Positions 6,918 to 17,108 of a stretch of 41,395 nucleotides of DNA are shown here, one piece after another (position 1 is the stretch's first letter; every line of letters starts with the position of its first letter). Made by a program: the position numbers and the translations under genes. Source of the stretch: Parachlamydiaceae bacterium (lineage in GTDB: Bacteria; Chlamydiota; Chlamydiia; Chlamydiales; Parachlamydiaceae); the NCBI GenBank assembly GCA_025451995.1, contig JANWJE010000045.1:1-41395 (forward strand). The letters run 5' to 3'. The notes beneath the pieces are model-generated. The model saw only the letters and a program-made list of their open reading frames with translations, searched no databases and was not told the DNA's origin.

Positions 6918-7073
6918 ATGACACGCTATCAAATGAATAATATTAAAGGGGTTTCAATGGTAGAGTATGCGTTGCTTGCTGCTTTAATTGCTGTAGCGGC
7001 AATTGTTGCGACAACAAGCATTGGTACAAACCTTGCTGCTAAATTTACTACTGTTGCCACCAACCTTCAATAA
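6918..7073 (+). CDS. flp: Flp/Fap-type type IVb pilin
   Basis: This 51-residue gene encodes the structural pilin of a Tad pilus. It has a short basic leader (MTRYQMNNIKG), the Flp processing site G/VSMVEY with Glu at +5 and Tyr at +6, then a hydrophobic helix (ALLAALIAVAAIVATT) and a short polar tail. Cleavage is expected after Gly11 by the prepilin peptidase encoded at 15676-16473. A run of seven Gs lies just before the ATG and could act as the ribosome binding site. A clear terminator follows the stop, so the pilin appears to be its own transcription unit, as is common for the most abundant Tad product. Confidence 0.93.
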   Translation: MTRYQMNNIKGVSMVEYALLAALIAVAAIVATTSIGTNLAAKFTTVATNLQ

Positions 7074-7179: not shown

Positions 7180-7237
7180 CCCGATTAAGCACTTAATTAT
7201 CTTGAATAGTTTTTAAAAAATCAGTATATTACTCTTT

Positions 7238-8422
7238 ATGAATTCAATAATAAATTTTCCATATCAAAAATCTGAAAATAATCTAACATTATTACCTGAT
7301 GATGTTATGCAATTAACATTATCTTGTTTGCAAATAATAGATTTTAAAAACTTTATCAAAATCAACAAGAAAACTTGTTCTTTAATAAAAAAACCTCAAT
7401 TTAAAGCTATTCTTATAGAAGAAGAAGTATTTACATTCGTCAATAAAAATAGAAACGAGAAGCGAAATCACACTCTTTTTAATGAAAAGATTTTTTCGAA
7501 TGTAAAAAAAACAGGCTTGCATTTAAAAAAATTAAAGCTTTTGGCGAATCATCCAAATACCTCTGAAATTGAGAGAATCGATATTAAAACGAAAGAATTG
7601 TCTCAATTCTGTCCAAATATCCAAACTCTTCGCGTGGGTGCAACTGATCATTCTCATCCCCTATCGGATTTGTTTTTTTTAGTCCATTTTACATCATTAA
7701 AAAGCATTTCTATCTCTCATTCATTAACTGAATATACCTGTTCCCAAGTGTTGAACATTTCAAATTTAATCAAACTTGAACTTTTAGATTGCGACGACTT
7801 TAGAGAACAAAACTTTAAAGAGATTGGAAAATTGAACCGTCTGCGCTTTTTGCATTTGAATCGATGTGATAAAAATTTCAAACTTATTGACCTAGGTTCT
7901 TTGAAAGAATTGCAATTTTTAAAAATTGAAGGGCATCAATTAAAATTATCAGAGAGTGATGACTTAATCCCCATTTTTGGCAAGCTCCAAGGCTTTGATT
8001 TGTTTAGTCAAAAAACAAATAGCAGAAGTATTTTAGCTTTTTTAAAAAAACATCTAAATTTACATCATCTTTTTATAAATAGCGCTCGTTTATCCGACGA
8101 TGAAATCATATCTGTAGTAGAGCTTGAAACTTCTCTTCGGTCATTAAGCTTGAAAAATACGAGCACTATTCAAAAATTTACCATTATTGATGGCGTATGG
8201 GAATCTTTTGCACGTATGCTTCACTTAAAATCTTTAATTGTAGATATTGCAATTACAGAACGTCAACTAGAGTTGTTATCAAGTTCTACATCTCTAAAAT
8301 TGCTTGATGTTTCAAACTATGAGGTGGCAAAACCATATAAGTTTGCCATTCGGACTCTAACAAATGGCAATCGTCTTCTTTCACCAAATTTTGAGAATAT
8401 TTTTAACGCGAGTTTTGGATAA
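7238..8422 (+). CDS. F-box-like / leucine-rich-repeat protein (candidate host effector)
   Basis: The 394-residue protein starts with an F-box-like segment (LPDDVMQLTLSCLQIIDFKN, then INKKTCSLIKKPQFKAI, about residues 19-57). Irregular leucine-rich repeats follow from about residue 125 to the end (SLKSISISHS, LIKLELLDCDDF, RLRFLHLNRCD, LQFLKIEGHQL). F-box/LRR proteins recruit targets to eukaryotic SCF ubiquitin ligases, and amoeba symbionts encode many, so host ubiquitin subversion is the likely role by analogy. No signal peptide is seen. The last six residues (FNASFG) and the stop codon are encoded by the left end of the palindrome at 8405-8570, so the original C terminus may have been altered. 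It lies between pilus genes but is probably unrelated to them. Confidence 0.8.
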   Translation: MNSIINFPYQKSENNLTLLPDDVMQLTLSCLQIIDFKNFIKINKKTCSLIKKPQFKAILIEEEVFTFVNKNRNEKRNHTLFNEKIFSNVKKTGLHLKKLKLLANHPNTSEIERIDIKTKELSQFCPNIQTLRVGATDHSHPLSDLFFLVHFTSLKSISISHSLTEYTCSQVLNISNLIKLELLDCDDFREQNFKEIGKLNRLRFLHLNRCDKNFKLIDLGSLKELQFLKIEGHQLKLSESDDLIPIFGKLQGFDLFSQKTNSRSILAFLKKHLNLHHLFINSARLSDDEIISVVELETSLRSLSLKNTSTIQKFTIIDGVWESFARMLHLKSLIVDIAITERQLELLSSSTSLKLLDVSNYEVAKPYKFAIRTLTNGNRLLSPNFENIFNASFG

Positions 8423-8570
8423 GGAATGCAGCTCCTTCGAGAGAAATTTTCTTTCAGATTTGAAAATTTTTTCGAAGCCTATAGCCAAATGCCCTACAGG
8501 CGAGAAAAAATTTTCAAAGCTGGAAGAAAAGATCCTCGAAGGAGACCATTCCTTATCCAAAACTCGCGTA
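8405..8570. repeat. Long palindromic repeat, family D (AACGCGAGTTTTGGATAAGG)
   Basis: The terminal arms AACGCGAGTTTTGGATAAGG and CCTTATCCAAAACTCGCGTA pair, followed by further pairing of AAATTTTCTTTCAGATTTGA and the facing strand. A shorter copy in opposite relative orientation lies at 38923-39046. The element closes the LRR frame and ends four bases before the stop codon of the convergent secretin gene, so it may act as a two-way terminator. Confidence 0.9.
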
Positions 8571-8573
8571 TTT

Positions 8574-11237
8574 TTAGGGTCGTGCAGGCATGACGGTTTT
8601 TAGAGAACACTTTGGTCTGGTATCAATTCTCGGGTAATTGGTTCTAATATCCGGAAGGGGGCCTTCGGCGACTTGTCCGGGCAATACGGGCACAGGTTGA
8701 GAATTATCTCCCGGCATGCAGATTTCGCAGGCAGGGGCATCATTGATTTGGTTTCCAATCACCTCAGTATCATTGACTAAATAAGGTGTAACTATAAATA
8801 ACAATTCTTTTCGATGATCTTCATATCTATTTGAATTGAATAAAGCGCCGAGAACCGGGATTCGGTTTAAGCCATATAAATTATCATTGATGTTAAGCTG
8901 TTGATCGTAATAAAGTCCGCCAATCACATAGGTTTGTCCCGGCCACAATCTCACTTTTGTATCCGCACGGCGTGTTAATAACGCCGGGATAAGGAATCCG
9001 GAGATTTCAACAGAATTGGCCTTGTCCAAAGTGCTGACTTCAGGAATCACATGAAGTGTGATGAGCCCGTTCAAGCCAACATCCGGTGTGAAATCTAGCA
9101 AAACCCCATATTTTTTATATAAAACTGTTACCGTAGTAAGTCCAAGCAAACCTGTCCCTTGAGGGATTAATATTGGAAATTCCCCCCCTGAGAAAAAGTG
9201 GGCGGTTTGACCGGAGATTGTCGTGATATTTGGAGCTGCAAGAAGTGTAGCATCGACATCTTCTTCGAGCATGTCGAGCAAGGCTGTGAGATCATACTTG
9301 CCGAACTGCCCTCGTGCTGTCAAGAGATATTGAGGCGGCGGCGCGATGGGAAAAACCGAGCTTAAACCAAGCGCTTGCTTTGTGGTATCATAGAGAACGT
9401 CCCAATTAACCCCTATTCTAGAAATGATGTCTTTGGAAACTTCATACACTCTGACTTTCAGGAGAACTTGTTGTGGTTGGACATCCAAGAGATTGATGAT
9501 TGCTTTGTCAGCGCCGGGAACTAATTTTGCTAAAATCTCTAAGATTTTGTCAGCCATTTGAGGATCCGGTACTTTTCCTTCAACTATGACACCTCTTGGT
9601 GTGATGTCGACTTTTAAACAAACAGGAAAAATGGAACGAAGCATATAGGTGACTAAAATGGAGCGAAAATTTTCATAGGAATCACTTTCTAAAAGGAGGT
9701 CGACTAAATCTTCATAGTTAGAGGGGCGGTCAAGCTCCATCAATTCTCTTGAGTCGTCTCCATTGCATGCAGATAATTCCAGTGTAAGCAATCCCGAGTG
9801 CTCTGCAAAAGAGAAAATTTCAGCTTGGCGAGGTGTCATTTCTAAAAATACTTTAATAGGCGGTGGAATTTCAATGGGCATTGGCCCCGGTTTTAGTGCT
9901 GGATTGAAATTTGGGGGTGTATGTCTTGGGGGTTGTGCTAAAGCAGCAGCAATTGGCGCTTGGAGGACCGGTCTTATCGTTCCGGGATGAGGCGGCGGTG
10001 CAAGCTGTGGGGGTACTGCTTGGGGTCCTTGGATGGAAACGATGCGCATATTTTTAAACAAAAGCAAGCTTACAGGGGGCAGCCCAACATCCGGCAATGA
10101 AATAAAACGAGTATCCACTCGCAAACCTAACCCCAAAAATGGGACAATTGGTGAATCAGAGCTGATTTCAAAAGGAACGGCGACATGACAGGGCGCAAGG
10201 GGTAATTTTTCGGGCTTTTTTTGTGCTAAATTGCGAAATTCTTCCTCTAAAATCACATCGTGATGTGTGATAAAACTCCCTCGAGAAATCTCTTTCTTTG
10301 TTATGTAATCATTCACATTTTTTTCGGTTTCCGGACTTCGGGTGATGAGTTGAGGATTGAGTTGATCGGGTGGAATTTTTACCCATTGAAAATCATTTTC
10401 TTCTAGGTGACTGTGCCCTTTGATATTTCGTTTAGCAGTTAAGACTTCGTTACTTCCTAATCCCTCTTCAAGGAGATTCACCACCCCTTTGTTGGAACTG
10501 AGCATTGTCAAGATCTGGGAGATTTTCTCATTTGTTTGCTGATCCAGTACTTTTCCTGAAACAATAAATCCCTTCGGTGTCGAAATGATTTTCACTTCGG
10601 CTTTTTCCGGAAAAAGGGAGTTGATCATATAGGTCGCGATGATAGATTGGAAACTGTCGGGGGAGTGACTTTCCAAAAGTTGCTCCGCTAAAGTGCTATT
10701 TTGCGGGTAAGAATTAGAACCTTCAATGGCGATATTAATTAACCCTGATTCTTGTGCAAAGGTAAGGATTTCCGCTTCTCGAGGGGTCATTTCAAGCAAC
10801 ATTTCAATCGGTGTGTTTGGTTTTAATTCTCCCACCTCATTGTAAGGTTTACCCTCCGGCCCCCGGCCTATTTCTAACACTCGAATGTGATTGATTAATG
10901 TTAAAGTGATTGAGCCAAATCCCATACTGGCATCTGACGAATAGATGATATCGATAAACATCCCTGGGTTCAAGAATTGAACAATCGAGGATCTAGTCGT
11001 GAAAAGAATTGAGACGCCAATTTTGCCTGTCTCCGGGGGTGGAGTCTCAGGCTTAATGAATTCCGGTTTTTTATCTAGCGGTTTATTTTGAGCTGCCCCC
11101 CCTTCTTGTGCCGGCGCATTTCCGGGAACGGGCATTGTTGCAGGTGCAGGCCCCGTATCATGCCGAGTAAAAAGCATAATGGCTATGACTGCAATAAAAG
11201 CAAAGGAGAGAAGAAAAATTAAGCGATCTCTTGACAT
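8574..11237 (-). CDS. CpaB/RcpC - secretin (CpaC/RcpA) fusion of the Tad pilus
   Basis: This 887-residue protein merges two normally separate Tad proteins. In order: a membrane anchor (residues 6-23); a Pro-rich linker to about 70; a first RcpC domain (72-172, ending LEMTPREAEILTFAQESGL); a BON-like domain (185-258); a SAF-like domain (265-330); a second RcpC domain (349-490, with LEMTPRQAEIFSFAEHSGL) interrupted by a Pro-rich insert at 405-460; a second BON-like domain (508-585); and a secretin domain (588-820) with LLAAPNITTISGQTAHFFSG and the conserved end RIPVLGALFNSNR. CpaB is a periplasmic assembly factor and CpaC is the outer membrane channel, so a fusion would fix them in one polypeptide. 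AAGGAAG precedes the ATG. It is divergent from cpaF, 107 bases apart. Confidence 0.92.
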   Translation of the reverse strand: MSRDRLIFLLSFAFIAVIAIMLFTRHDTGPAPATMPVPGNAPAQEGGAAQNKPLDKKPEFIKPETPPPETGKIGVSILFTTRSSIVQFLNPGMFIDIIYSSDASMGFGSITLTLINHIRVLEIGRGPEGKPYNEVGELKPNTPIEMLLEMTPREAEILTFAQESGLINIAIEGSNSYPQNSTLAEQLLESHSPDSFQSIIATYMINSLFPEKAEVKIISTPKGFIVSGKVLDQQTNEKISQILTMLSSNKGVVNLLEEGLGSNEVLTAKRNIKGHSHLEENDFQWVKIPPDQLNPQLITRSPETEKNVNDYITKKEISRGSFITHHDVILEEEFRNLAQKKPEKLPLAPCHVAVPFEISSDSPIVPFLGLGLRVDTRFISLPDVGLPPVSLLLFKNMRIVSIQGPQAVPPQLAPPPHPGTIRPVLQAPIAAALAQPPRHTPPNFNPALKPGPMPIEIPPPIKVFLEMTPRQAEIFSFAEHSGLLTLELSACNGDDSRELMELDRPSNYEDLVDLLLESDSYENFRSILVTYMLRSIFPVCLKVDITPRGVIVEGKVPDPQMADKILEILAKLVPGADKAIINLLDVQPQQVLLKVRVYEVSKDIISRIGVNWDVLYDTTKQALGLSSVFPIAPPPQYLLTARGQFGKYDLTALLDMLEEDVDATLLAAPNITTISGQTAHFFSGGEFPILIPQGTGLLGLTTVTVLYKKYGVLLDFTPDVGLNGLITLHVIPEVSTLDKANSVEISGFLIPALLTRRADTKVRLWPGQTYVIGGLYYDQQLNINDNLYGLNRIPVLGALFNSNRYEDHRKELLFIVTPYLVNDTEVIGNQINDAPACEICMPGDNSQPVPVLPGQVAEGPLPDIRTNYPRIDTRPKCSLKTVMPARP

Positions 11238-11344
11238 AACTTCCTTAAATCAGGATGCAATCGAAGTCTTAAAACAAGAATTGTAATTAAATTTTTAATA
11301 AAGTACTTTTTTGAATTTTAAAGTGCAAGCTAAAGTGATTCAAT

Positions 11345-12661
11345 ATGACGATTCCAACCGACTTCGATGCAGAACGGACTGCTAATAAAGAATTTTTAGC
11401 GAAAGTATTAAAAATCCATGGAATGATGCTTGAGAATTTGGATTATGGAAAAGTAGATGCCTTGCAAGGAGATAAGAAGGGGTATGAGCAATATCTCAAT
11501 GACGAGATAAAAAACACCATTAATCGCATGAAAATTGCTAAATCTGAAGAAGAAGAAAATAGATTAGCAATCGCTGTGTATGATGAAGTTGCGGGCTTCG
11601 GTCCGGTAGAACCCCTACTGAGAGATAAAGTCATTACGGACATTTTTATCAACAGTCCTGATGCGATTTATGTAGAAAAAAGGGGCCGCGTAGAAAAAAC
11701 AAATCTTTGCTTTGTCGATAATGATCATATTTTTAGGCTTGTTCATAGAGTAGCATCAAAATCGGGACGACATCTCGATTTAAGCACCCCCTATTTTGAT
11801 GCTCAGTTACCCGATGGAAGTCGAATCCATGCCATCATTCCCCCATTGGCGATCGATGGCATTAAAGTTTCCATTAGAAAATACCTTTTCCAAAAGTTGA
11901 ATATTGACCGTTTAGTGGAAGGGGGAAGTTTAAGCCCTCCAATGGCCAAATTTCTTCAAATAGCGGTTCAGGCCCGTTTAAATATAGCCATCTGCGGAGG
12001 TACGGGATCCGGAAAAACAACTCTCATGAATTCGCTTCTCACCTCTATTGGCGCCGGAGAAAGAATGATTACAATTGAAGACACGCCCGAACTTGAACCT
12101 GCGCATCATCACGCAGTGCGCTTGTTAACCCGCCTCCCAAACCCTGAAGGCAAAGGCGGCGTGACTCAGGCAGATTTAATGATTAATGCTTTGAGAATGC
12201 GCCCCGATAGAGTGATTTTGGGAGAGTTGCGGGGCGCTGAAGCATTCAATTTACTCCACGCCATGAACACAGGGCAAGATGGAACGATGGCAACCCTGCA
12301 TGCCAGCGGTTCGGAAGAAGTTGTATCCCGCCTCCTCAATATGATCCTTATGGCGCGCTATAATATCTCGGCTGAAAGTGTTCGTCAACAAATTGCCGGA
12401 GCTCTTGATCTTATTATTTTTGTCACTCGCCTAGTCGATGGATCGAGGAGAATTATGACCATTTCTCAGGTTTCTGAAGAACAGCCCATGGGCTTAAAAA
12501 TCGAAGATGTTTTTAAGTTTGAAATTGAGAAAATCAGCCCAACAGAATTGAAGGGAAAATTTAAGACAATGCATTATGAACCTACTCGAAGGATATTAAA
12601 TAAGCTGGTTGTCTCCGGGTTAAAAGACGAATATTTCAAAATATTTAATGAAGAAAAATGA
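11345..12661 (+). CDS. cpaF: CpaF/TadA pilus-assembly ATPase
   Basis: The 438-residue protein is the hexameric secretion ATPase that powers Tad pilus polymerisation from the cytoplasmic face. The Walker A motif GGTGSGKTTLM is near residue 220, the Asp box ITIEDTPELE near 245, the Walker B region RVILGELRGAEA near 290, and the His box MATLHASG near 320. Length fits the family. The N-terminal part (KIHGMMLENLDYGKVD) matches the helical region typical of CpaF. The tadBC gene begins eight bases after the stop, so they are co-transcribed. No obvious Shine-Dalgarno precedes the ATG. Confidence 0.96.
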   Translation: MTIPTDFDAERTANKEFLAKVLKIHGMMLENLDYGKVDALQGDKKGYEQYLNDEIKNTINRMKIAKSEEEENRLAIAVYDEVAGFGPVEPLLRDKVITDIFINSPDAIYVEKRGRVEKTNLCFVDNDHIFRLVHRVASKSGRHLDLSTPYFDAQLPDGSRIHAIIPPLAIDGIKVSIRKYLFQKLNIDRLVEGGSLSPPMAKFLQIAVQARLNIAICGGTGSGKTTLMNSLLTSIGAGERMITIEDTPELEPAHHHAVRLLTRLPNPEGKGGVTQADLMINALRMRPDRVILGELRGAEAFNLLHAMNTGQDGTMATLHASGSEEVVSRLLNMILMARYNISAESVRQQIAGALDLIIFVTRLVDGSRRIMTISQVSEEQPMGLKIEDVFKFEIEKISPTELKGKFKTMHYEPTRRILNKLVVSGLKDEYFKIFNEEK

Positions 12662-12669
12662 GATAAATA

Positions 12670-14181
12670 TTGGATATTTCAAAATACAAACCGGAAGAGA
12701 CAGATAAAAGCTCTGCTGTTGGTAAGTTTATCAACGATTATTTTATAGAGCCGAGCTTTATCTCAGCTATTACATATTTAAATCTTTTTATTCTCTACTT
12801 TGTTTTAGCGATCGTTATTTTAGGAAGGGAGCCAAGCCCTTTTTTGATGTTTTTTTATCTTCCCGTGATCTACATGATTTCTATGATGAGAAAATCGCGG
12901 ATGGAAACAAACCGTTTGGAAATTGCCCATAGAATCCCCCAATTCGCAGATGCTTTGGCCAATGCATTATCTCTTGGACAAACGCTAGAAGCAGCCTTTA
13001 AACAAGCCACTTATTACCTCCGAGGGAAAATTCAAAAAGAGTTGAACTTGCTCGTTTTAAAAAATGCCCTTGGAAGAAATATTGGGCAATTATTAAGAGA
13101 TCTCGATTCCCGTTTTCCCAATACAGGGTTTGTCTATCTGATTTCTCTATTAGAAGCCTATAGCGAACTTGGTGTTGGGATTAGCCCCCTTTTAAAAAAA
13201 ATATCGATTACATTAGCCGAAAGAGAAAAAGCAGAATCGAAGATAAAAACCATTTTATCTGCCGGAAGCGGCTATGCAAAATTAACGATTGTCATTTTTT
13301 CTTTAATATTTGTAGTTTTAGGTTTTTTATTAAAAAAACAAATCGTTTTACTTTTTACACCCACGTTAGAGCCTATTTTAATTTTTCTCTGCATTTGGAC
13401 AGGCATCGGCATTCTAGTCGTTATGCGTATCACATCCCTTGAATTTGCTCGTAATTTTGCATTGGTTCCTCTCATAAAAAATTTCAAACAATCGGAAAAA
13501 ATGACTTTTGATGATTTCCTCAAATATTCCGGAGTGCAATGGACACCCTTTAAAAGAAAATTACTATTAGCGACTCCCCTCTTGGTGGGTTTTTTTGTTT
13601 CGTATTTGACATCCCGATTTAACGATGGACCGATCGCAATTCTCTTCGGTTTTATATTAGGCACAGCCATGTGCTGGGGTCTGATTAAATATATCATCAA
13701 GGGAATGTTTGAAGATCAATTGATCAAACTCATTGAAACGTTCCCTGATCTCCTCCAAATTTTTTCAATTGGATTAAACTCTGGGCTCAATGTTTACTTA
13801 GCGTTTGAATTTGCAGTGGATGCACTGAAAGAAAACTCACCTAGATTGTTGTTAGAAGAACTCACACGGACAAAATTTGCAATCGAGTGCGGCGAAAACC
13901 CTTCTGTGACATGGCAAAAACTTGCCGATAAATTGCCATTTGAGACAGTTGTGGATTTTAGCGACATCATGGTGATTGCTCCTATGCATGGTGAATCGAT
14001 TATCAATTCGATCAACCATATGATCCTAAGCTATCAAGAAAAAAAGCTCACTTTAATCGAAAAAAAAGCAGTCTCTTTAAGTCAAATCGTCATTCCATTG
14101 ATTATTGCAGCATTTTTTCCTCTCTTCGTCTTTGTCATTTTTGCTCCCCTCTTTATTCGAATTAGCGATGTCTTTCATTAG
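12670..14181 (+). CDS. TadB-TadC fusion, pilus inner-membrane platform protein
   Basis: This 503-residue protein contains two type II secretion F (T2SSF) domains in one chain. Membrane segments near residues 36-72 precede the first domain (ADALANALSLGQTLEAAF to YSELGVGISPLLKKIS). A membrane block follows (SGYAKLTIVIFSLIFVVLGF, LIFLCIWTGIGILVVM), then a middle linker and further segments, then the second domain (FPDLLQIFSIGLNSGLNVYL to INHMILSYQEKK) and a C-terminal segment (IPLIIAAFFPLFVFVIFAPL). In most Tad loci TadB and TadC are separate. Together they form the platform on which CpaF acts. The only available start is TTG, eight bases after cpaF, which suggests translational coupling. Confidence 0.92.
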   Translation: MDISKYKPEETDKSSAVGKFINDYFIEPSFISAITYLNLFILYFVLAIVILGREPSPFLMFFYLPVIYMISMMRKSRMETNRLEIAHRIPQFADALANALSLGQTLEAAFKQATYYLRGKIQKELNLLVLKNALGRNIGQLLRDLDSRFPNTGFVYLISLLEAYSELGVGISPLLKKISITLAEREKAESKIKTILSAGSGYAKLTIVIFSLIFVVLGFLLKKQIVLLFTPTLEPILIFLCIWTGIGILVVMRITSLEFARNFALVPLIKNFKQSEKMTFDDFLKYSGVQWTPFKRKLLLATPLLVGFFVSYLTSRFNDGPIAILFGFILGTAMCWGLIKYIIKGMFEDQLIKLIETFPDLLQIFSIGLNSGLNVYLAFEFAVDALKENSPRLLLEELTRTKFAIECGENPSVTWQKLADKLPFETVVDFSDIMVIAPMHGESIINSINHMILSYQEKKLTLIEKKAVSLSQIVIPLIIAAFFPLFVFVIFAPLFIRISDVFH

Positions 14182-14227
14182 ACAAAAAATCAAAATTAAT
14201 ATATGTATCAAATCAAAGGGAAGGTTT

Positions 14228-14653
14228 ATGGCTTGGGGAAAAATAAAAATCAGGGGAAATGCAATGATAGAATTTGCACTTGTTCTTCCTGCATTTTTAC
14301 TTTTAACGGCAGGAATGGTCGATTTAAGTGTCTTATACTATGATCAAGCTGTGATTACGAATGCGAGCAGGGAAGGGGCGCGTTATGGGGTAGCAGTCCT
14401 AACGCCTAGCTACCCAACGACAGCCCAAATCACAACTTATGTAAAAAATTATACAACTAATCATTTAATCAATTTCAGCACATCTCCTACTAATGTGACA
14501 GTGACAGCTACTCCATCAACATCACCCGCAGTATTCGGTTCAACCCTTAATGTAACTGTGAATTATACCTATACAGATTTACTCTTACATCATTTTATCA
14601 ACCATGGGAACCAATATAGTTTAAGCGCTACAACAGTGATGACTTATGAATAG
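14228..14653 (+). CDS. tadE: TadE-like minor pseudopilin
   Basis: From the ATG at 14228 the protein is 141 residues: a basic leader (MAWGKIKIRG), the prepilin-like site NAMIEFALVLPAFLLLTAGM, and a pseudopilin-like C-terminal domain with ASREGARYGVA and many Thr/Ser. TadE-like proteins initiate or stabilise the Tad pilus. An open frame runs back to 14105 inside tadBC, but AAGGGAAGG just before 14228 and the leader structure favour the shorter form. It is followed after six bases by the TadG-like gene. Confidence 0.88.
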   Translation: MAWGKIKIRGNAMIEFALVLPAFLLLTAGMVDLSVLYYDQAVITNASREGARYGVAVLTPSYPTTAQITTYVKNYTTNHLINFSTSPTNVTVTATPSTSPAVFGSTLNVTVNYTYTDLLLHHFINHGNQYSLSATTVMTYE

Positions 14654-14659
14654 GGAGGC

Positions 14660-15667
14660 ATGATGTATTGCAATTCTCATCATTCCATCAAAGGACAAAT
14701 GATGGTCTTATTTGCTGCAGCTATCGTTGCCTTGGCTGGATTGCTTGCTATAAGTGTTGAAGTGGGACATATTTTTGTGATTAAAAATGAATTGCAAAAT
14801 GCAGCTGATGCTGCTGCTCACGATGGCGCAGCTTATCTTTTTCCCTCAGCTTCAGGGACTGGACTTCCCAATTGGACAACAGCCCAAACAAACTCCCTTA
14901 CTGCGGTAAAACGAAATAAAGTGGGTGGTTTGGCATTAACCAATGGAACAATTGCTGGAGGTTGGTGGGATACAACGCGCACGACAACAACTTTAAAGCC
15001 AACAAGCAACACTCCCGGCCCGAATGATGTCCCGGCCATTCAAGTGACAATTTCAAGATCCGCAGGGCAAAATGGCGGACCCGTCAGTTTGTTCTTTGGC
15101 TCAATTTTGGGATTGAGCACCGTTAATTTATCTGCTAGTGCAGTGGCGGCTTCCGGATCCCCAAGCACAGTGAATGCAAACACACTTTTCCCCGTTGGAA
15201 TGGCACAAGGATTATATAACACTTACTGGGATTCAACAACCAACCAGCCTAAAATTGACCCCTCAACAGGTCAACCTTATATTTTTCAAATTAATTCCGG
15301 GCCTAATGGAGGTTGGTCAACCTTTTTAACTCAAACGAACAGCAGTCCGAGTATCATTAGTTTAATCAATAGCGGGAATCCGGCACAATTATCGATTGGT
15401 CAAAATATTTGGTTTCCTTCCGGTGTTAAAACTGATGTCTATTCCAACGTTCCAACCAATGTCAATGTGATGGTCGCCGTAGCCGCCCAAACGACCCCCG
15501 GAAACTGGTCCCCTATTGTGGCTTTCGCCCCATTGCATATCATCTCTGCTGCAGGAGGCTCTAGCAAATATATACAAGTGCAGTTTCTCAACAATTTTAA
15601 ATTTACTCAAGGAACGATGGGGGGTGGCTATTACGGCGCTTACATGCCTCCAAGAATCGTGGATTAA
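14660..15667 (+). CDS. TadG-like pilus assembly protein
   Basis: The 335-residue protein begins with a short polar leader, then KGQMMVLFAAAIVALAGLLA (the conserved TadG/TadE N-terminal helix) and NELQNAADAAAHDGAAYLF, the Ala-rich signature of the Flp pilus assembly TadE/G-like family. The remainder is a Gly/Ser/Thr/Asn-rich exported region with little charge. I see no von Willebrand MIDAS motif (DxSxS), so this is a short TadG-like form. AGGGAGGC precedes tandem ATG codons at 14660 and 14663. The gene ends eight bases from the end of the convergent prepilin peptidase gene. Confidence 0.88.
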   Translation: MMYCNSHHSIKGQMMVLFAAAIVALAGLLAISVEVGHIFVIKNELQNAADAAAHDGAAYLFPSASGTGLPNWTTAQTNSLTAVKRNKVGGLALTNGTIAGGWWDTTRTTTTLKPTSNTPGPNDVPAIQVTISRSAGQNGGPVSLFFGSILGLSTVNLSASAVAASGSPSTVNANTLFPVGMAQGLYNTYWDSTTNQPKIDPSTGQPYIFQINSGPNGGWSTFLTQTNSSPSIISLINSGNPAQLSIGQNIWFPSGVKTDVYSNVPTNVNVMVAVAAQTTPGNWSPIVAFAPLHIISAAGGSSKYIQVQFLNNFKFTQGTMGGGYYGAYMPPRIVD

Positions 15668-15675
15668 GAAATTAA

Positions 15676-16473
15676 TTAGATAAGAAAATAATAAAGAGCA
15701 GCCATGGCAACGACGCTCGCATAGCAACCAAATGATGCCTCCTTGCGAAGATATTCTTTATCAAGCTTACGGTGAATATAGATAAATTGAATAATAGTGC
15801 CAATGATCAATAACACCATCGAAATGGCTAAAACGATGAGAATTGCCTTATAACCGACACAGGCCCCAATTCCAGCGTTTAGTTTAAAATCCCCTGGAAA
15901 AATTCCATTTGTATGTCGAAAAAAACGATAAATCTCATTGATAAACCAAAAAATGGAATACCCCACAATTGCACCGATAATCGCTTCATGTGAATCAATG
16001 AACACATGATAAAGAGAAAAAAACAATCCAAGCCATAATAAAGTCAAAGTAAATTGATCGGGCAAAATGCAATATTCATAATCAGTCATAAAGCAGCAAA
16101 TGAGCAAAGCGCTGGATGATAAAACAAATAAGGTCATAGGCGTTAAAGAAAAGAAGAGAATGGTTAAACCAAAAAGTATTGCAAGGCCCACTTCAATCAA
16201 CCATTCTCTTTTTTTTATTTTCCGCTTACAATTTGGACAGTGCCCTTGAATGCTCAGATAGCCAATAATCGGGACATCCGACCATCCTAAAAAAGGGTAC
16301 TGGCACTGAGAGCAGTGACTGGTTGTAAAACAAGAGTGAAAAACATCGCGCAGCTCTCCCCCTTCTTTACACCCTTCTAATAGAAATACGGGAAGCTCCC
16401 TCGTCAATGAAGCAATAAATTTTCCAAGATAAGCCCCCACAGTTATTGCTACAATGACATAAAAAAACAACAT
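15676..16473 (-). CDS. pilD: Prepilin peptidase (type IV leader peptidase / methyltransferase)
   Basis: This 265-residue membrane protein has the two zinc-binding cysteine pairs C54-S-Q-C57 and C79-P-N-C82 of the N-terminal methylase-type domain. At least six hydrophobic helices follow, with catalytic Asp candidates in TDYEYCILPD (D131 and D139) and IFPGDFKL (D195). This large PilD form, rather than the small CpaA/TadV form, probably processes the Flp, TadE and TadG leaders here. The usual GxGD motif is changed to FPGD: the aspartate is kept, but the first glycine is not. AAGGGGAAAT precedes the ATG. It is convergent with the TadG-like gene and is the only leader peptidase in the locus. Confidence 0.93.
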   Translation of the reverse strand: MLFFYVIVAITVGAYLGKFIASLTRELPVFLLEGCKEGGELRDVFHSCFTTSHCSQCQYPFLGWSDVPIIGYLSIQGHCPNCKRKIKKREWLIEVGLAILFGLTILFFSLTPMTLFVLSSSALLICCFMTDYEYCILPDQFTLTLLWLGLFFSLYHVFIDSHEAIIGAIVGYSIFWFINEIYRFFRHTNGIFPGDFKLNAGIGACVGYKAILIVLAISMVLLIIGTIIQFIYIHRKLDKEYLRKEASFGCYASVVAMAALYYFLI

Positions 16474-16556
16474 ATTTCCCCTTTTACTGAATGAAAACGA
16501 AATCTTCTTTTTTTGTATCTATTTTTCTTTTATAAACAAAATAAAGAGGTAAAACC

Positions 16557-17108
16557 ATGAAAAAAAATATTTTATTTACCCAATTATGTTCTTGCCTCCC
16601 CTTATTTGTTGCTTTTTGTGAAGAGCCAGGAGTGTATATTCCACCCGGCAATGATGCAGATACTACGGGGACCTATTCTCAAATGAATGCGACATTGGAA
16701 AATTATGATTCGAATCGGGGCGATGAAAAACAAGTGGAGAACTGGTGGGAAGGAGCTTTGAATTTCGCCAGTGAATACATGCGGCGATTAGATGAGGGTG
16801 AATATGCTTCCACTTGGGGATCCAATGATAAAATCATTCAGGATATTATTGGAAAAGGAGAGTGGCAAAGAGGCCTGGCAAAAACACGATCGGAACTTGG
16901 ACCTGTCACCTATCGCGAGTTAGTAGATAAACGGATGGCTATTAATCCCAATGGCTTGCCCCAAGGTGTCTATGTCATTTTAACTTATAACACCACTTTT
17001 AAAAACACCGGTAATGGGCAAGAAGTTCTTGCCCTTCATCGCTATTCGGATGGCAGATGGAACACCTTAATTTATCAATCTTATCAGGACCCTAATCCAT
17101 CACCATAA
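16557..17108 (+). CDS. DUF4019-like exported protein
   Basis: The 183-residue protein has an N-terminal signal peptide (MKKNILFTQLCSCLPLFVAF, cut near FCEEP). A domain follows with the DUF4019 pattern: ASEYMRRLDEGEYASTWGS, WQRGLAKTRSELGPVTYREL, PQGVYVILTYNTTFKNTG and a closing DGRWNTLIYQSYQ. The function of this family is not known; members are small periplasmic proteins. It is divergent from the prepilin peptidase gene. A short TTCCAG/CTGGAA hairpin follows its stop at 17118-17136 without a proper T run. Confidence 0.8.
   Translation: MKKNILFTQLCSCLPLFVAFCEEPGVYIPPGNDADTTGTYSQMNATLENYDSNRGDEKQVENWWEGALNFASEYMRRLDEGEYASTWGSNDKIIQDIIGKGEWQRGLAKTRSELGPVTYRELVDKRMAINPNGLPQGVYVILTYNTTFKNTGNGQEVLALHRYSDGRWNTLIYQSYQDPNPSP

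Follow-up and report, generated by a model that had tools for sequence, protein, structure and literature searches.

A fused and internally duplicated CpaB/RcpC-CpaC/RcpA protein in the Tad locus of a Parachlamydiaceae bacterium

The window analysed here, a stretch of 41,395 nucleotides from a Parachlamydiaceae genome (contig JANWJE010000045.1 of assembly GCA_025451995.1), contains a Tad pilus locus in which the alignment-ring protein CpaB (also referred to as RcpC) and the outer-membrane secretin CpaC (also referred to as RcpA) are encoded by a single gene. This gene lies at 8574..11237 on the minus strand, where translation gives an uninterrupted frame of 887 codons (887 aa), and the plus strand across the same positions has many stops. 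Divergent from it is the gene for the motor ATPase CpaF/TadA (11345..12661, plus strand; PF00437, E 1.2e-49), followed on the plus strand by a single-chain TadB-TadC platform protein of 503 aa (12670..14181; two T2SSF stretches), the minor pilin TadE (14228..14653; PF07811, E 4.2e-15; the reading frame opens at 14105, with a likely start at about 14228) and a TadG-like protein with Tad and Tad_C domains (14660..15667; PF13400, PF09977), and on the minus strand by an A24 prepilin peptidase (15676..16473; PF01478, E 5.5e-17). A 51-aa Flp pilin is encoded at 6918..7073 on the plus strand (PF04964, E 1.3e-12, above cut-off at 6936-7064); this short gene was missed by the length-limited list of open reading frames, and between it and the fused gene lies an F-box/LRR gene of a eukaryote-like effector type (7238-8422). 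A DUF4019 protein (16557-17108, plus strand; E 8e-21) adjoins the Tad genes at the opposite end. The GC content of the Tad stretch (8574-17108) is 0.41 compared with 0.37 in the rest of the window, and is highest in the fused gene (0.44) and tadG (0.45), which could reflect acquisition or a mere compositional difference.

From its N-terminus, the 887-aa chain is composed of a transmembrane helix, a proline-rich linker, RcpC, BON-like, SAF, RcpC, BON and secretin regions, all encoded on the minus strand. The hydrophobic helix (residues ~6-24; 11166..11222) has a Kyte-Doolittle maximum of 2.86 at residue 6, with all other segments of the chain at or below 1.6, and the linker behind it (residues 25-70; 11028..11165) has 11 prolines in 46 residues. 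These are followed by RcpC copy 1 (residues 69-169; 10731..11033), BON-like copy 1 (residues ~193-262; 10452..10661), a SAF domain equivalent to domain D1 of CpaB (residues 263-327; 10257..10451), RcpC copy 2 with a proline-rich insertion at ~405-460 (residues 350-491; 9765..10190), BON copy 2 (residues 521-588; 9474..9677), the secretin lead-in and PF00263 core (residues 589-820; 8778..9473) and a C-terminal tail (8577..8762).

The original prediction, made from the letters alone, had read the same succession of domains in one chain, and profile searches agree with it. With the whole chain as query, Pfam identifies Secretin at 656-820 (E 1.9e-35), RcpC in two stretches (the best at 69-169, E 2.9e-12), BON at 540-587 (E 1.7e-4) and SAF at 263-327 (E 0.002). 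Searched as isolated pieces, RcpC copy 1 (PF16976, E 5.2e-11, 42.9 bits) passes the curated cut-off of 28.8 bits, the SAF domain, which sits ahead of RcpC copy 2, passes its cut-off of 21 (PF08666, E 8.2e-6, 26.7 bits), and BON copy 2 matches PF04972 (E 5.8e-4). RcpC copy 2 of the window protein, searched alone, scores poorly (E 0.14, over its last 27 residues only) because of the proline-rich insertion within the domain, but is aligned by hhalign to the RcpC domain of CpaB; its counterpart in the orthologue described below scores above the curated cut-off (PF16976, E 7.8e-11, 42.3 bits). The best solved relative of the secretin part is the Tad secretin RcpA (PDB 8odn, E 1.4e-38), with GspD and PilQ behind. 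For BON copy 1, the Pfam BON profile matches in the orthologue copy alone (E 0.0077), and its assignment in the window protein draws on a structure model of the first RcpC-BON unit built from four repeat sequences (pLDDT 80, pTM 0.76), in which it has the helix-strand-strand-helix-strand order. The top Foldseek match of this model is the cryo-EM structure of RcpC (9gzr; E 1.6e-5, prob 1.00, with a modest TM-score of 0.39), followed by weaker matches to the BON proteins DolP and OsmY; a viral fold library yielded nothing meaningful. A full-length prediction from a two-sequence alignment reached a pLDDT of 30 and was left unused.

The two RcpC-BON halves are also duplicates of one another, as had been proposed from a short repeat (residues 148-166 against 465-483), whose 14 of 19 identities are exact and which is part of a longer duplication: the two units of the window protein are 32% identical over 236 columns (E 4e-30), and 500 shuffles give z=45 for this match. 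The corresponding copies within the orthologue are 38% identical over 193 columns. Between the two genomes, identity reaches 48% for copy 1 against copy 1 and 42% for copy 2 against copy 2, compared with 32-38% for the copies within one genome, and the duplication is therefore older than the divergence of the two genera.

This orthologue was found when the same fusion was sought in other Chlamydiae, among 234 Chlamydiota genomes. It is encoded on the minus strand of the GenBank MAG contig JABDFJ010000015.1 (positions 7180-9408) as an intact frame of 742 aa, in a genome, here G015, that was assembled independently and belongs to another genus of the same family. It shares the domain order and is 44% identical to the window protein over residues 1-825, the alignment gaps showing that it is without the SAF region and the proline-rich insertion only, and in both genomes a Shine-Dalgarno-like sequence lies directly upstream of the aligned ATG. 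The two loci are also alike, with the fused gene divergent from cpaF, a single TadBC chain encoded after cpaF, genes for TadE, TadG and a prepilin peptidase close by, and a Flp-type pilin (PF04964 in G015 also). An assembly or sequencing artefact joining two genes, for which the draft state of both many-contig genomes might speak, is thus scarcely conceivable, since intact frames of the same order and 44% identity occur in independent assemblies of different genera and since a simple mis-join cannot create the duplicated RcpC-BON unit in the first half. The protein is a real fusion with an internal duplication inside a recognisable Tad system, and we found no earlier report of a CpaB-CpaC (RcpC-RcpA) fusion in the open-access literature.

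Its distribution is narrow. RcpC matches occur in two of the 234 Chlamydiota genomes, the window genome and G015, in both cases as the fused gene, and this type of CpaF occurs in three, with identities of the window protein of 74% to G015, 62% to the third genome (G171, from another family) and at most ~43% in the best plasmid matches (the relatives are annotated as CpaF). The Tad contig of G171 ends before any secretin, and the other secretin frame of this genome lies beside GspE and GspF and is a GspD, so that G171 gives no information on the fusion. A search of 84,980 species genomes, with patterns too specific for distant relatives, returned only the G015 contig, and IMG/VR gave no match. 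The fusion is likewise absent from 72,556 plasmids, in which no single place covers 80% of the window protein; two plasmid matches that cover 84% of the orthologue were rejected as fusions, as they are the two separate genes of a Sulfitobacter cpaB-cpaC pair.

In the canonical loci that were compared, cpaB directly precedes cpaC on one strand as a separate gene, which upholds, for the loci compared (outside Chlamydiota, those on plasmids), the premise that the two are separate proteins in known Tad loci. The control locus, on an Azospirillum plasmid, encodes Flp, peptidase, CpaB (292 aa), CpaC (482 aa), CpaD, an AAA ATPase in the position of CpaE, CpaF, TadB and TadC. By hhalign, residues 243-491 of the fused protein (SAF and RcpC copy 2) align to residues 23-232 of this CpaB (E 2.9e-5), and residues 522-823 (BON copy 2 and secretin) to residues 115-418 of this CpaC (E 1.5e-40, 39% identity), an alignment that leaves out the signal peptide and N-domain of CpaC. 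Like CpaB/RcpC (P. aeruginosa RcpC, PDB 9gzr; PF16976), the fused protein has an N-terminal helix, SAF (D1) and RcpC (D2), but its RcpC is doubled, with a BON behind each copy and SAF between the copies (lost in G015), and instead of ending in a recognisable C-terminal hairpin the chain continues into the secretin. Like CpaC/RcpA (PDB 8odn; PF13629-BON-PF00263), it has BON and secretin domains that align along their length, but the PF13629 N-domain and a signal peptide of its own are replaced by the CpaB part, and the product of a separate gene is here in one frame with CpaB in two genomes. A related arrangement is seen on plasmids of Sulfitobacter sp. DSM 110093, where 24 bp separate cpaB from cpaC, the two genes share a reading frame, and the G015 protein aligns across both in a single tblastn match; order and frame are as in the fusion, but stop codons, the CpaC signal peptide and the N-domain lie in between, and there is no duplication.

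The elements that are not recognisable at the junction are those through which the separate proteins meet. The RcpC of P. aeruginosa spans the inner membrane once and forms a dodecamer with a pore of ~5 nm, it binds the RcpA N-domain as judged by co-purification, and its C-terminal hairpin, modelled on that N-domain, is required for function; standard RcpC and RcpA already make a continuous complex from inner to outer membrane by docking (PMC12307814). In Caulobacter, CpaI has been proposed as a bridge between CpaB and CpaC (PMC13170226). In profile searches PF13629 was found neither in the 887-aa chain nor elsewhere in its genome or in G015, but is plain in the control CpaC and present in Caulobacter, and the seam of about 30 residues (~491-522) has no second signal sequence; the CpaC N-domain and the CpaB hairpin, the docking elements in Pseudomonas, are exactly what is unrecognisable there. 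The same facts bear on whether the product might be a polyprotein, cut after translation into CpaB-like and CpaC-like parts that work as an ordinary machine. Long flexible proline-rich stretches (the linker and the insertion) could be cleaved, but the second of these lies inside RcpC copy 2 and is absent from the orthologue, a released CpaC part would begin at a seam with no signal sequence, and the N-domain on which ordinary docking depends has no match in the genome; we regard such processing as improbable.

The rest of the genome, which is 97% complete, holds no RcpC match outside the fused gene in profile searches. It encodes two other secretins, a GspD beside GspE and a protein of ~1,200 residues, which we take to belong to type II (T2SS) and type III (T3SS) secretion systems, respectively, from their neighbours and from what is known of chlamydial secretins. 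With no other RcpC match and no other Tad-type secretin, the fused protein must therefore serve as both ring and secretin if the pilus is functional. The sparse occurrence of CpaF and RcpC among Chlamydiota would fit a relic locus from which pili are no longer made, as would the failure to detect TadZ/CpaE, for which the weak model PF16968 is unmatched in the window genome, G015 and G171 and stays below cut-off in Caulobacter too. However, every frame is intact in the two genomes, which retain the Flp pilin, peptidase, motor, platform and minor pilins, and decay of the system seems to us highly improbable.

How the chain sits in the envelope depends on its first residues. Canonical secretins such as RcpA carry a cleaved signal peptide (predicted for RcpA at residues 1-32, PMC10499894), and hydropathy alone does not distinguish such a peptide from an anchor; were the helix cleaved, the mature protein would lack an inner-membrane anchor and would be a long secretin of the outer membrane, extended in the periplasm by a part derived from CpaB. 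We consider this unlikely, as the conserved N-terminus (MSRDR in one genome and MAKDR in the other, then ~17 hydrophobic residues, R/K and the proline-rich linker) resembles the anchor of CpaB, a helix that holds RcpC in the membrane (PMC12307814). By inspection, the helix is flanked by R3 and R5 ahead and by R/K and proline behind, and neither genome appears to have an obvious AXA cleavage site after it.

We therefore favour, as the likely reading, that the alignment ring and the outer-membrane secretin of the Tad pilus have become one chain, in that adjacent cpaB and cpaC genes lost the boundary between them and RcpC-BON was then duplicated in tandem. The boundary would have been lost first, with in-frame neighbours like those of Sulfitobacter as the likely kind of pre-fusion state, and the duplication would have come second, because BON derives from CpaC and a BON trails each RcpC; the first SAF would have been lost or never copied, and the second lost also in G015. 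In the proposed model, the N-terminal helix would anchor each chain in the inner membrane and some 12-14 chains would form a single oligomer, in which inner-membrane anchors, flexible linker, a first RcpC-BON tier, SAF, a second RcpC-BON tier and secretin follow one another. The secretin domains would form the outer-membrane pore, two stacked periplasmic RcpC-BON rings would guide the Flp pilus to it from the CpaF/TadBC platform, and the covalent joint would take the place of the contact by which the CpaB hairpin docks to the N-domain of CpaC. Equal copy numbers (1:1) would then force one symmetry on ring and pore, unlike in Pseudomonas, where a 12-mer ring meets a 13-mer pore; RcpA particles have 13-fold symmetry, or 14-fold in a minority (PMC10499894). 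That the conduit is one covalent chain from membrane to membrane, without docking domains, with a stacked pair of guide rings and with a single rotational symmetry, is a proposal whose chances we judge to be evenly balanced. Several points weigh against the favoured reading: the TM-score of the Foldseek match to RcpC is modest, RcpC copy 2 of the window protein, with its weak profile match and proline-rich insertion, may have lost the ability to form a ring, and with an inner-membrane anchor the chain must still find its way to the outer membrane without a pilotin known here.

The different envelope-spanning architecture that the original prediction had foreseen thus holds for the covalent joint, the unrecognisable docking elements and the doubled guide-ring module, but the overall route across the envelope was already known from RcpC-RcpA docking. 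In type II secretion, GspB/OutB and the GspC-GspD link similarly connect the inner membrane with a secretin of the outer membrane, but non-covalently and through separate proteins (PMC9239104).

Still open in the Tad field, where structures were published only in 2023-2026, are the questions of how ring and secretin meet and of how a pore with 13- or 14-fold symmetry accommodates a ring with 12-fold symmetry. A natural fusion of the two offers a direct test, as the symmetry it adopts must serve both parts, and provides a ready-made construct for solving the whole trans-envelope Tad conduit. It also suggests that environmental chlamydiae, which are obligate intracellular bacteria, have a Tad pilus; we found no report of Tad pili in chlamydiae in the open-access literature.

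The C-terminal tail contains three of the six cysteines of the window protein, all behind the secretin core, and all four of those in the G015 orthologue. Disulfide cross-linking is a known property of chlamydial outer envelopes, and, speculatively, a cysteine-rich tail may stand in place of a pilotin contact.

The platform protein is probably a second fusion. Single-chain TadBC proteins of 503, 512 and 501 aa are encoded in three chlamydial Tad loci (the window gene, L004:10956-12494 and L032:3424-4929), with a TadC-like C-terminal half (E 1e-5 to 1e-8) and an N-terminal half that is slightly, and weakly, nearer TadB than TadC. Unsplit archaeal platforms have a TadC-like N-terminal and a TadB-like C-terminal half (PMC6668835); the chlamydial order is that of bacterial tadB-tadC and the reverse of the archaeal one, which makes re-fusion more likely than an ancestral state. 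On these comparisons, the Tad locus of these chlamydiae seems to have been condensed by two gene fusions. The L032 locus (contig C206 of G171), from the other family, has extra TadE-like genes on both sides.
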